Assembly (NCBI RefSeq): GCF_013009075.1
Contig: NZ_CP053108.1
Span: 3,366,517-3,430,516, forward strand
Direction of reading: 5' to 3'
DNA from: Halomonas sp. TA22
GTDB taxonomy: Bacteria; Pseudomonadota; Gammaproteobacteria; Pseudomonadales; Halomonadaceae
DNA: 64,000 bases
The notes below the pieces were generated by a model. That model worked only from the letters and a program-made list of their open reading frames with translations, was not told the DNA's origin and did not search any database. This document shows positions 37,115 through 41,821 of the stretch, piece by piece; positions within the stretch are counted from its first letter, which is position 1; every line of letters begins with the position of its first letter. The position numbers and the translations under genes were made by a program.

Positions 37115-38026
37115 ATGATTAGACAACGTACTCTCAAGAACACGATCCGTGCCACAGGTGTAGGCCTGCACTCTGGCGAGAAGGTCTATCTGACGCTTCG
37201 CCCGGCACCGGTCAATACTGGCATCATGTTCGTGCGTACCGACCTGGAGCCGCAGGTGACGATTGCCGCTCGCGCCGAGAATGTGACGGACACCATGATG
37301 TGTACGGCGCTCTCTCAGAATGGCGCCAAGGTGGCGACGGTCGAGCACCTCATGTCCGCCTTCGCGGGGCTGGGCATTGACAATGCGTTTGTCGACGTCA
37401 GCGCTCCTGAAGTGCCGATCATGGATGGTAGTGCCAGCCCTTTCGTCTTCTTGATCCAGTCGGCGGGCATCGATGAACAGGAAGCCGCCAAGAAGTTCAT
37501 TCGCATCAAGCGCGAAATCGTGGTGCGTGAGGGTGACAAGGAGGCGATGTTCCTCCCTCACAATGGCTTCAAGGTTTCCTTTGCGATCGACTTCGATCAT
37601 CCTGTCAGTGAGCTTCGTCAGCAAATGACGGTAGTCGACTTTTCCACTACTTCCTTCGTCAAGGAGGTGTCGCGGGCGCGTACCTTCGGCTTCATGCGCG
37701 ACTTGGAGCTTCTTCGTTCTCAGAATCGGGCATTGGGCGGCAGTCTCGACAATGCCATCGTGGTGGACGACTACCGTATCCTCAACGAGGGCGGGCTTCG
37801 CTACGACGATGAGTTCGTCAAGCACAAGGTACTTGATGCCATTGGCGATCTCTACCAGCTCGGCTACAGCTTGATCGGCGAATTCCGTGGTATCAAATCC
37901 GGTCATGCGCTCAACAATCAATTGTGTCGCGCAATGTTAGCCCAGCCAGAGTGCTTCGAAATTGTGACCTTCGAGGACGAAGCGCAGCGCTCGCCGATCT
38001 CCTACGCTGCACCGGCCATGGCGTAA
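37115..38026 (+). CDS. lpxC: LpxC, UDP-3-O-acyl-GlcNAc deacetylase
   Basis: A 303-residue zinc deacetylase, the committed step of lipid A synthesis. It begins '[21 protein letters not shown]', like E. coli LpxC, so ATG 37115 is chosen over 37094. The zinc ligands are in '[12 protein letters not shown]' (His near 79) and '[15 protein letters not shown]' (His/Asp near 238-242). It has its own promoter after ftsZ. In E. coli LpxC level is set by FtsH proteolysis; the C-terminal tail here ends '[10 protein letters not shown]', hydrophobic and Ala-rich, compatible with tail-dependent degradation, but this is inference. Confidence 0.97.
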
Positions 38027-38057
38027 GCCCGGCGATCACTCAAGCCGTCAAACATTG

Positions 38058-38086
38058 ACGCCGTCTCCTCCGCGAGACGGCGTTTC
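38058..38086. terminator. Terminator between lpxC and dciA
   Basis: A ten-base perfect stem ACGCCGTCTC / GAGACGGCGT with a six-base loop, then TTCTCGTT. It lies between the convergent lpxC and dciA genes and probably ends the dcw/lpxC transcripts. Confidence 0.7.
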
Positions 38087-38117
38087 TCGTTCAGGGCATG
38101 AACACTGCAGGATGCCG

Positions 38118-38579
38118 TTACTGCTGGCGCTGGGCGTGTGCGGCGAGACGCTGCAGGGCCTGCTTGAGGCGCGGGTTCTCGGTGTCGTCGGCGCAGAGTG
38201 AAATCTCGTCGGCGGCACTTGGCGACAGTTGGCGTGTCTGGCGCGGTAGGGCCTTGTGCGGACGAATTGGCCTCACCTTTAGCGTGAATCCCAGTACCGC
38301 CTCGAATTCGGGCAGACGGCGCAGCAGGGTCAGCAGCCGTGGCTGTTCGTAGCGCAGCCAGGTGAGCCAGACCGCGCGGTCGGTGATCAGGGTCAGCTTG
38401 CCTTGGCGGTATCCACCGACAAAGACATGCGGGCGCACCTCTTCAGGTAGGTGGTAACGCAACTCCTGCTGGGCATGATCGATGAGACTGGCCATGCGCA
38501 TCAACCCGCCCAACTCGCCGTTACCGGAAAGCAGTCGGGTCACGGGCTGGGCGCGGAAACGCTTAACCTTTATACTCAT
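38118..38579 (-). CDS. dciA: DciA (DUF721), DnaB-helicase loader-type protein
   Basis: A 153-residue DUF721 protein with the KH-like core 'HVFVGGYRQGKLTLITDRAVWLTWLRYEQPRLLTLL' spread over about residues 50-87 and a basic N-terminus ('MSIKVKRFRAQPVTRLL'). DciA is the ancestral operator of the replicative helicase DnaB in bacteria lacking DnaC. Its position beside secA matches pseudomonads. It is divergent from the small gene upstream of secA, and the two share a 65-base intergenic region. Confidence 0.88.
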   Translation of the reverse strand: MSIKVKRFRAQPVTRLLSGNGELGGLMRMASLIDHAQQELRYHLPEEVRPHVFVGGYRQGKLTLITDRAVWLTWLRYEQPRLLTLLRRLPEFEAVLGFTLKVRPIRPHKALPRQTRQLSPSAADEISLCADDTENPRLKQALQRLAAHAQRQQ

Positions 38580-38644
38580 GGGCTTGCACTTTGATCAATT
38601 GACGGTAGCGCGCAATCTATCATGCCCCGGAGTTCACCAACAGC

Positions 38645-39016
38645 ATGAGCCAAGCAGGCCCGGAGTCGATGCTCACCCCCCATGGTGCTGGCGTTCAAGC
38701 GTCCCGCCACCGCGTGCGCGCACGCTGGTGGCTGGCGGGGCTGCTGGTGGGTTGCCTGTTGCCGGCAGGGCTTGCTCAGAGCGACGCCGTGCGCCTGGTC
38801 AACCGGGTGGTCCAGATCTGCTGGCTGGTACCCGAGACGATTCGTGCCGAGAGTCGACGCCTGGCGCGGCGCTGCCGCTGGCAGCCCCGACGTCGCCATG
38901 GCGCGGATCATAGGCGACGCCTGATCCGCATTGCTAGTCCCCCGCCGTCTTTCTGTGCCGGCCTCGATGTGCTGACGCGACGTGGCCCTCCCGCCATCCT
39001 ACGCAATTTCGCCTAG
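38645..39016 (+). CDS. Small signal-sequence protein before secA; candidate Sec-monitoring arrest peptide
   Basis: An unrecognised 123-residue protein. N-terminal part: basic region 'RHRVRAR' (residues 21-27), hydrophobic core 'WWLAGLLVGCLLPAGLA' (28-44) and a plausible cleavage near AGLA/Q. The middle is very Arg-rich (about 65-95). The end is 'LTRRGPPAILRNFA', with Arg113-Gly114-Pro115-Pro116 seven residues before the stop. It lies 75 bases upstream of secA on the same strand, with no terminator between. Enteric SecM has the same layout (signal sequence, C-terminal RAGP stall motif, next to secA), but there is no other similarity. An alternative start is Met9 (38669). GGAG lies about 12 bases before the first ATG. 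That this is a real gene is likely; the arrest function is inference. Confidence 0.6.
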   Translation: MSQAGPESMLTPHGAGVQASRHRVRARWWLAGLLVGCLLPAGLAQSDAVRLVNRVVQICWLVPETIRAESRRLARRCRWQPRRRHGADHRRRLIRIASPPPSFCAGLDVLTRRGPPAILRNFA

Positions 39017-39091
39017 CCGCCCATCGGGCGCCGGTTAGTCGTGTTCGCGACTCTCCGCTTCGTTTTGGCAACAGCACATAGTGGACTTTTC

Positions 39092-41821
39092 ATGATCAAT
39101 TCTCTGTTACGCAAGGTGGTCGGTTCCAAGAACGACCGCGAAGTCAAACGCCTGAGCAAGCCGGTCACGCAGATCAACGAGCTCGAGCCGCGCTTCGAGG
39201 CCCTCGACGATGCGGCGCTTAAGGCCGTTACTGGTGAGTTTCGCGAACGTATCGCTGGCGGCGAGACGCTGGACAAGCTATTGCCGGAAGCCTTTGCCGT
39301 GGTGCGCGAGGCGAGCAAGCGCGTCATGGGCATGCGCCATTTCGATGTACAGATGATCGGCGGCATCGCCCTGCATCGTGGTCGTATCGCCGAGATGAAG
39401 ACCGGCGAGGGCAAGACGCTGGTCGCCACGCTCGCGGTATATCTCAATGCCCTGCCCGGCAAGGGCGTACACGTGGTCACCGTCAATGATTACCTGGCGA
39501 CCCGCGACGCCGAGTGGATGCGCCCGCTCTACGAGTTCCTCGGATTGTCGGTGGGTACCATCTACGCCGGCCAGGATAGCGGCCAGAAGCGCCAGGCCTA
39601 CGCCTGCGACATCACCTACGGCACCAACAACGAATTCGGCTTCGACTATCTGCGCGACAACATGGCCTTCTCGCTGGAGGACAAGGTTCAGCGCAAGCTC
39701 AACTACGCCATCATCGATGAGGTCGACTCGATCCTGATCGATGAGGCGCGCACGCCGCTGATCATTTCGGGACCGGTGGAAGAGAACACCGAGATGTACA
39801 AGGTGGTCGACCGCCTGGCTCAGCAAGTGGTCAAGTGCAGCGATCCGGAGGATCCGGCCAGTGGCGACTTCCTGCTCGACGAGAAACAGAAGCAGGTCGA
39901 GTTGACCGAAGAGGGGCACCACAAGGTCGAGGCACTGATGCGTGCCGAAGGCCTGCTGGGTGAAGAGGATTCCCTGTACGCCGTACAGAACCTCAACCTG
40001 CTCCAGCACATGCATTCGGCGCTGCGTGCGCGCCATCTCTACCAGCGCGATGTCGACTATATCGTCAATGATGGCCAGGTGGTGATCGTCGACGAGCATA
40101 CCGGGCGCAGCATGCCGGGGCGCCGCTGGTCCGAAGGATTGCACCAGGCGGTGGAGGCCAAGGAAGGGGTAACGGTGCAACGCGAGAGCCAGACGCTGGC
40201 CTCGACGACGTTCCAGAACTATTTCCGCCTTTATGACAAATTGGCCGGCATGACCGGGACTGCCGACACCGAGGCGTTCGAGTTCCGCCAGATCTATGGC
40301 CTGGACGTAATGGTGATCCCCACCAACCGTCCGTTGGGGCGTCGCGATCTCAACGACCTCGTCTACCTCTCCACCGAAGAAAAGTTCGAAGCGATCATCA
40401 AGGATGTCCAGGCCGAGACGGCGGCGGGCAGGCCGGTACTGGTCGGTACGGCTTCCATCGAGAGCTCCGAGTATCTGGCCCGCCTCATGAAAGAGGCCAA
40501 CCTGACATTCAACGTGCTCAATGCCAAGCAGCACCAGAGCGAGGCGGAGATTATCGCCCAAGCTGGGCGGCCGGGGGCAATCACCATCGCCACCAACATG
40601 GCCGGCCGGGGTACCGATATCGTGCTGGGGGGTAACTGGGAAGCCGAGGTGGCCAAGCTCGAGAATCCCGACCAAGCGCAGATCGATACTGCCAAGGCGG
40701 CATGGCAGGAGCGTCACGAGGCGGTATTGGCAGCGGGCGGTCTGCATGTGATCGGCTCCGAGCGTCACGAGTCGCGGCGCATCGACAATCAGCTGCGTGG
40801 GCGCTCCGGCCGTCAGGGTGATCCGGGCTCCACCCGCTTCTTCCTGTCGCTGGAAGATAGCCTGATGCGGCTATTCGGTTCCGATCGCGTTCAACGCATG
40901 ATGAAGGCGCTGGGGATCGAGCGTGGCGAGGCGATCGAGCACAAGATGGTCTCAAACGCAGTGGAGCGTGCCCAGAAGAAGGTGGAGGGCCGCAACTTCG
41001 ATATCCGCAAGCAGTTGCTCGAGTACGATGACGTGGCCAACGCCCAGCGTCGCGTGATCTACGAGCAGCGCGACGAGATCCTTGGCGCCGAGGATGTCTC
41101 CGCCAACGTGCGTGGCATCCATGAAGAGGTGCTGGAGCAGGCGATCAGCGATTTCGTCCCGCCCCAGAGCCTGCCCGAGCAGTGGGATCTGGAGGGATTG
41201 CAGGCGCATCTCAAGACCGAGTTCAACCTCGAGGCTCCGCTGCTGGAGTGGGCCGAAGCGGATGAGCATTTTCACGAAGAGCAGTTGCGCGAACGGCTGC
41301 AGGCCCAGCATCGCGATGCCTATGCTGAGAAAGTGAAGAGTGTGGGCGAGGAGTTGATGCGCCGTTTCGAGAAGCAGGTCATGCTGCAGGTGCTCGATAC
41401 CCGTTGGAAGGAGCATCTTCAGGCCATGGATCACCTGCGCCGGGGTATCCACCTGCGAGGTTACGCGCAGAAGAATCCCAAGCAGGAGTACAAGCGCGAA
41501 TCCTTCGAGCTGTTCCAGATCTTGCTGGCCAATATCAAGGCCGATATCACGCGCATCCTCAGTCATGTCAAGGTGCGCCGTCAAGAGGAGGTCGAGGAGC
41601 TTGAACGCAAGCGCCGTGAGGCGCTCGAGCGCGAGAAGGCCGCGGCCGCCAGCCGTCATGACGAGTATGATACCTCTCCCGAAACGCCGGCCGCTGGCGA
41701 AGCCGCACCGGGGAGCGACGGAAAACCGCTGCGTCGCGAGGGGCCCAAGGTCGGACGTAACGACCCCTGTGTCTGCGGGTCGGGCAAGAAGTACAAGCAG
41801 TGCTGTGGAAAACTCAACTAG
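39092..41821 (+). CDS. secA: SecA, preprotein translocase ATPase
   Basis: A 909-residue motor that pushes preproteins through SecYEG. Walker A is '[13 protein letters not shown]' (about residue 103), DEAD-like '[17 protein letters not shown]' (about 208), and the second motor half '[16 protein letters not shown]' follows. The tail is the zinc-binding SEC-C motif '[13 protein letters not shown]', which binds SecB. ATG 39092 begins '[16 protein letters not shown]'; an in-frame earlier start at 39041 is not homologous. The ribosome site is weak (GGA), fitting translational control by the upstream small gene. Confidence 0.98.

Follow-up and report, generated by a model that had tools for sequence, protein, structure and literature searches.

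Arrest peptides encoded by upstream ORFs (uORFs) were searched for in more than 30,000 genomes by Fujiwara et al. (2024; PMC10987492). Passages of that paper describe uORFs with RAPP or RGPP motifs before secA in a subset of Pseudomonadales, a group called uA_RQH_Pseudomonadales. One member of this group (R109GPP) arrests the ribosomes of both E. coli and B. subtilis in vitro, with a fraction arrested of more than 0.9, and RQH members stall with the third residue of the motif in the P site (passages of PMC10987492). The arrest peptides ApdA and ApdP, which are compared here by description, have RAPP and precede secDF, and thus differ from the peptide studied here in taxon and in downstream gene. 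According to passages of a second report, no other RAPP-like variant tested arrested as stably as RGPP, the arrest of ApdA and ApdP is not relieved by EF-P, and proteomes avoid RGPP (PMC12992588). Another RGPP peptide, uDF_RQH_Enterobacterales of Alteromonas naphthalenivorans, likewise compared by description, controls secDF2 in another order; a stem-loop covers the downstream Shine-Dalgarno sequence, and mutants showed its importance (passages of PMC10987492). SecM of E. coli has the arrest sequence FxxxxWIxxxxGIRAGP (passages of PMC10987492), arrests at the third residue of R-x-x-P, and has an RNA arm near the stall (P+7..P+14 in K-12) that is complementary to the secA start.

The window analysed here is a stretch of 64,000 nucleotides from Halomonas sp. 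TA22, whose genome is a single 3.73-Mb contig. The original prediction, made from the letters of this stretch, described a 123-codon ORF with a hydrophobic segment at residues 28-44, the motif R113-G-P-P, a tail of seven residues and a gap of 75 nt before secA, and all of these features were confirmed (Table 1). The tail separates P116 from a TAG stop codon, and the gap extends from 39017 to 39091. The statement that no terminator lies between the uORF and secA also held, as there were 0 terminator-like sites in 38000-39200 (shuffles: mean 0.9); the number of sigma-70-like promoters in the same interval was also 0 (shuffles: 0.2). On the minus strand within the uORF (38843-38925), Rfam gave a sub-threshold match to nhaA-II RNA (27.9 bits, gathering threshold 70.4, E 0.04), which is probably due to chance. 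The matches of the window protein to MFS_MOT1 (0.012) and CcdA (0.055) in Pfam/NCBIfam are far under the cut-off and were regarded as chance, as was a second weak match in the same genome (30% identity, with a TGA inside).

Table 1. Features of the uORF and its surroundings, in positions of the window
Feature	Position	Strand	Basis or remark
dciA, divergent neighbour	38118..38579	-	Pfam DciA, E 1.5e-8
Candidate arrest-peptide uORF, 123 aa	38645..39016	+	intact; homologues in 257/275 family genomes
Signal-type hydrophobic segment WWLAGLLVGCLLPAGLA, residues 28-44	38726..38776	+	inspection of residues 23-46 and conservation; L34, C37, L38, P40 identical in 30/30 sequences of alignment A1
Second conserved block R..NR.VQIC..P..IRAESRR.A (also R..ER.VQIC..AP..IRAESRR), codons 50-79	38792..38881	+	leader alignment
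Candidate 5' arm AUGUGCUG masking the secA start, in codons D108-V109-L110	38967..38974	+	pairing search
Putative arrest motif R113-G114-P115-P116, codons CGT GGC CCT CCC	38981..38992	+	R, P, P in 74/74 and G in 72/74 non-redundant leaders
Predicted P-site codon of the stall, Pro115	38987..38989	+	analogy with RQH members (passages of PMC10987492)
UCCGCU, arm of the alternative hairpin, pairing with 39080-39085	39054..39059	+	folding
3' arm CAGCACAU, just upstream of the Shine-Dalgarno sequence of secA	39072..39079	+	8 Watson-Crick pairs with 38967-38974
Putative secA Shine-Dalgarno sequence GUGGAC	39081..39086	+	most relatives NGGAC/NGGAU, similar spacing
secA	39092..41821	+	ATG at 39092

The window uORF resembles uA_RQH_Pseudomonadales in being a uORF of unknown function directly before secA, on the same strand, in the GTDB order Pseudomonadales, and in having an N-terminal signal, RGPP near the C terminus and a spacer of over 30 residues between them. 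The window protein agreed with that group in every sequence feature tested, and several of its relatives have the motif Arg at residue 109, like the R109GPP member tested in vitro. Halomonadaceae is one of the families in a single order Pseudomonadales according to passages of PMC7498684, in agreement with GTDB. Judged by these features, the window peptide is possibly already counted in the published group; word searches of the main text of PMC10987492 gave no mention of Halomona, Chromohalobacter, Cobetia, Kushneria, Salinicola or Zymobacter. Among the matches listed in word searches of the literature, whose scope did not extend to supplements and most subscription journals, there was no paper on this gene in Halomonadaceae. 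The original prediction had proposed that the gene senses Sec activity and controls secA, and that it is an independent invention. The first part is supported by the signal, the motif and the gene order, whereas the second is not supported, since RAPP/RGPP uORFs before secA in Pseudomonadales were reported in 2024 (passages of PMC10987492); this kind of control is already described in other bacteria and is not a lone new invention.

To map the gene across the family, several sets of sequences were used. A profile search found it in 257 of 275 family genomes and in 20 of 24 genera. The 18 genomes with no profile match were all of g3 (8) and g5 (6), one each of g23 and g24, and two of g11 (incomplete genomes); the wider family can thus do without this control. 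When 58 genomes were searched with the whole protein, 29 clear relatives (E <= 7e-7) were found, all from the same family, and these together with the window protein make up alignment A1. The loci read are L002-L111, in which L002 is the window; they were extracted regardless of the motif, and the database scan started from the signal segment, not from the motif. Eighty named loci, retained from 166 confirmed loci and overlapping in species with the unnamed ones, include Halomonas, Chromohalobacter, Billgrantia, Vreelandella and Modicisalibacter. Chromohalobacter belongs to Halomonadaceae, and we take the other four genera to belong there as well. After near-duplicates were removed at 88% similarity, 74 of 109 leaders were left; L038, in which the uORF runs into secA without a stop, was excluded from the RNA and alignment counts. 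The one-per-genus set consists of one locus for each of 20 genera among L002-L031.

The ORF was intact in the relatives read, and R[G/A]PP was present in all 110 loci (RGPP in 108 and RAPP in 2, with the window included; 99 distinct protein stretches), a count that refers to these loci and not to all 257 profile-matched genomes. secA comes next in each of the 110 loci, with a gap of 15-207 nt across the 74 leaders. R113, P115 and P116 are invariant in A1, and G114 is replaced by Ala in two of its 30 sequences. The residues upstream of the motif are also well kept, with D108 in 71, V109 in 68 and L110 in 65 of the 74 leaders; residues about 80-104 are poorly conserved, and the tail behind the motif is unconserved and 2-15 residues long. 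The motif and the signal core are the best-conserved parts of the protein in related genomes, a point that the original prediction had proposed to check. Across the family, the motif Arg is encoded by CGT, CGC, CGA, CGG or AGA, and all four Gly codons and all four Pro codons are used. The residues of the motif are near-invariant while its synonymous codons vary freely, which indicates that selection acts on the peptide.

Two loci of genus g7 (L028 and L030) have RAPP in place of RGPP at 175-188 nt ahead of secA and have lost D-V-L; in both, codons that follow the motif match the secA start. In Halomonas socia CKY01 (L038:2875-5634), the uORF and secA form one open frame with no stop, and RGPP lies upstream of the secA Met; a similar open frame of 919 codons was seen in G071, which is possibly the same genome. 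The fused frame in L038 reflects a sequencing error if it is not a natural case of read-through.

The signal core is conserved as strongly as the motif in A1, and the counts for the 74 leaders agree. Since the database scan was seeded on L30, A31, G32, L34, C37 and L38, the 80 named loci cannot count as independent evidence for the conservation of these residues; A1 was built from the whole-protein search and is free of this seed. The invariant Cys of A1 (C37, 38753-38755) is in the middle of the signal core, and such conservation within the core of a signal peptide seems unusual. A lipoprotein signal (L-V-G-C at 34-37, with Cys37 invariant) was considered and rejected, because it is preceded by only about nine hydrophobic residues and the hydrophobicity continues as far as residue 44. 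The distance of about 70 residues from the signal to the motif, which had been given for the window, was confirmed; counted from Cys37, the third motif residue lies 77-84 residues further on in 74/74 leaders. When the ribosome is stalled, the second conserved block would be about 36-65 residues from the peptidyl-transferase centre, outside the exit tunnel. The spacer is basic (mean 22% Lys+Arg vs 5% Asp+Glu), which might make it a poor and hence sensitive export substrate.

Our preferred reading of these sequence comparisons, to which we give a probability of about 0.86, is that translation stalls at Pro115 in an export-sensitive way and that this raises secA; the ORF very probably encodes a functional candidate for a Sec-monitoring arrest peptide. 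The N-terminal signal would direct the growing peptide to the Sec translocon. Once Pro115 occupies the P site and Pro116-tRNA has entered the A site, peptide-bond formation would be blocked by the Arg-Gly-Pro/Pro sequence. If export is brisk, translocation would pull the chain and the ribosome would be freed; if export is slow, the ribosome would remain and secA translation would rise. Most likely, the stalled ribosome would do so by disturbing the pairing of the ORF end with the secA ribosome-binding site. The intact ORF, the family-wide order of signal, motif and secA, the selection for the peptide at the motif, and the excess complementarity described below were all computed here.

In the window, the candidate arm in the D-V-L codons can form an 8-bp helix with the segment before the secA Shine-Dalgarno sequence (p 0.117 vs synonymous recoding, window alone), and the window ORF end ranked 8th of 74 ORF ends against its own secA start. 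The alternative hairpin covers the Shine-Dalgarno sequence itself and crosses the 8-bp helix, so the two exclude each other. Their predicted shares vary with the length of RNA folded (helix 0.07-0.94, hairpin 0.03-0.55), and the folding of the window leader is no better than that of shuffles (z -0.79 and -0.73). The stalled state was modelled by removing all RNA up to 17 nt past the start of the P-site codon. In this model the hairpin has a probability of 0.81, so that static folding predicts no release in the window, and the accessibility of the Shine-Dalgarno sequence is 0.21 stalled vs 0.20 free. The 5' arm occupies positions 13-20 nt upstream of the P-site codon and so falls at the ribosome's trailing edge, where coverage is not clear, whereas the SecM arm is downstream of the P site. 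Arms on this exit side might be covered by a queued second ribosome.

The ordinary folding, the lack of predicted release and the p value of 0.117 are on the side of another explanation, in which the stalling peptide acts on secA by translational coupling or by protecting the mRNA, and the window genome has no specific masking helix. This explanation overlaps with our preferred one, and two results count against it. As a positive control, the E. coli secM-secA helix was put through the same test and gave p 0.113, about the same as the window, which means that significance is not to be expected from a single genome and that one genome cannot decide. The other result is an excess of complementarity across the family that was absent, for the 74 leaders, from the three preceding 42-nt segments.

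Two regions were paired for this comparison: the stall region, from 24 nt upstream of the first base of the P-site codon to 17 nt downstream of it, and the secA start region, from 30 nt upstream of secA to 3 nt inside the gene. Compared with the average over synonymous recodings, the best uninterrupted helix between them was stronger in 63 of 74 leaders (-14.5 vs -11.8 kcal/mol, p 3e-10); the same held for 17 of the 20 one-per-genus loci (p 0.0014), and single leaders reached p 0.05 against synonymous recoding in only 7 of 74 cases. When the stall-site codons of each genome were compared with those of other genomes, the native codons also gave stronger helices (-14.5 vs -12.0, p 1e-8, 74 leaders; 16/20, p 0.007, genus set). 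Among the control segments, [-66,-24) gave p 0.63 for the 74 leaders and p 0.044 (14/20) in the one-per-genus set, and [-150,-108) deviated the other way (p 0.011). Kinship of species is only partly handled in these tests, through the one-per-genus sets. With full folding, the Shine-Dalgarno sequence paired with the ribosome-covered part at a mean of 0.25 vs 0.09 in synonymous controls (p 6e-6) and 0.04 in shuffles. Modelled accessibility rose from 0.29 in the free RNA to 0.43 with the RNA up to the front edge of the ribosome removed (a difference of 0.15; shuffles 0.03); in the stalled-state model, the secA start was not clearly more accessible than in shuffles (p 0.08). Taken together, the claim that the RNA at 39017-39092 takes part in masking the secA start is supported family-wide and only weakly for the window genome taken by itself. 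We consider control with no specific masking helix in the window genome unlikely, and an RNA step there, in which the stall disturbs the masking of secA, somewhat favoured.

The position of the arm differs among the leaders. Of the 74 leaders, 30 have their best arm on the entry side, 23 have it in the D-V-L codons of the exit side, and 21 in the motif. The Gly-Pro-Pro codons had been considered as the main anti-Shine-Dalgarno arm, and this was narrowed, as the per-position profile of folded pairing peaks on the D-V-L codons. Pairing of the D-V-L codons extends over 11-13 positions in five leaders whose Shine-Dalgarno sequence is CAGGAC or CAGGAU (L012, L047, L092, L095 and L103). The wobble base of the Asp codon covaries with its partner (T-A 22, T-G 3, C-A 4, C-G 9; Fisher p 6e-4, uncorrected for kinship) in the 38 of 71 leaders that were usable, that is, with A or G as partner; 3 of the 74 leaders are without the GGA/GGG anchor. 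The association between AGG-type Shine-Dalgarno sequences and the Val codon GTC was not significant (20/25 vs 27/46, Fisher p 0.11). Over 11 positions, leaders paired with their own partners at 7.11, which is more than in all 5000 permutations (mean 6.81), a small and consistent excess that is uncorrected for kinship. In L028, which has RAPP and lacks D-V-L, the arm is ten nucleotides after the motif, where AUUCUGUCCU pairs with AGGACAGAAU adjoining the secA ATG; like that of E. coli secM, this arm is on the entry side. These comparisons give about an even chance that the arrest codons of Halomonadaceae are doubly coding, with D-V-L-(S/T)-R-R-G-P-P and its neighbours serving both as peptide and as a mask of the secA Shine-Dalgarno sequence, the arm having drifted among genera between exit side, motif and entry side and always staying within reach of the stalled ribosome.

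The order signal, arrest motif, secA is the same in SecM, and both the position on the same side of secA and the third-residue class of the stall would fit a divergent SecM homologue instead of a separately evolved arrest peptide. The motif of SecM is RAGP, in contrast to RGPP in the window peptide. From residue 100, the window protein reads PPSFCAGLDVLTRRGPP, and the positions of F, W, I, G and I in SecM hold P, A, G, T and R, respectively. BLASTP of the window protein against E. coli SecM gave no alignment up to E 100, and profile comparison gave a probability of 0.1%. The 30 members of A1 had best E values of 0.012 in Pfam and 0.029 in NCBIfam, and no SecM family was among the matches. The earlier observation that there is no resemblance to enteric SecM outside the motif was upheld in these searches.

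The genomes without the ORF also bear on this question. The region before secA was read in 30 of them: 13 of the 18 from the same family (G175, G176, G177, G236 and G266 were left out) and 17 from outside it, each from a different one of the 21 other families of the order that occurred in the whole-protein search. The reading covered ORFs with 40 codons or more that end at most 500 nt from secA. None of these 30 genomes had RGPP or RAPP near the end of an ORF before secA. Instead, an M23-type peptidase-like gene of about 310-360 codons was found at that spot in 27 of them (12/13 in the family and 15/17 outside); the M23-type call was made by eye from an HVH-type signature, and two were confirmed as Peptidase_M23 by Pfam. 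The exceptions were L127, L131 and L132, and in L127 a frame with an HVH-type signature is nearby but not among the ORFs ending at most 500 nt from secA. When the M23 protein was compared with six genomes that have the arrest ORF, matches with 28-47% identity were found, all in longer open frames (342-609 codons); most spanned only the peptidase domain, and the longest covered residues 61-307 of 310. It seems from this that the arrest ORF replaced the M23-type gene within Halomonadaceae, which suggests a later gain and argues, along with the searches above, against descent from SecM. A SecM homologue is accordingly very unlikely, and we conclude that the window peptide is not one, as far as sequence can tell.

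The five g3 loci read (L115, L119, L121, L123 and L124) lack the arrest ORF, and their M23-type protein terminates in RSAP-stop or RAAP-stop (5/5), unlike the endings elsewhere, which are commonly of the -RASR type. These endings might cause a weak stall at the stop codon.

That the ORF instead encodes a small exported envelope protein with its own function, and RGPP is coincidental or a structural C-terminal motif, would agree with the conservation of the signal core and the block at 50-79 but is the least probable explanation, as R, P and P are kept in every leader beside a poorly conserved region at about 80-104 and tail, secA follows in every locus read, and the 30 members have no Pfam or NCBIfam match below the E values given above.

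An export-sensitive arrest peptide ahead of secA is thus the reading that we retain. New here are the map across the family, the M23-type gene at loci without the ORF, and the evidence for arrest codons that double as an arm masking secA. The M23-type gene at the same spot in most of the relatives read without the ORF offers a case for dating the gain of the switch. Most of a family of halophiles would have a probable Sec-monitoring switch ahead of secA, and with so many natural variants of one arrest peptide and RNA switch, the sharing of codons by peptide and RNA constraints can be studied.
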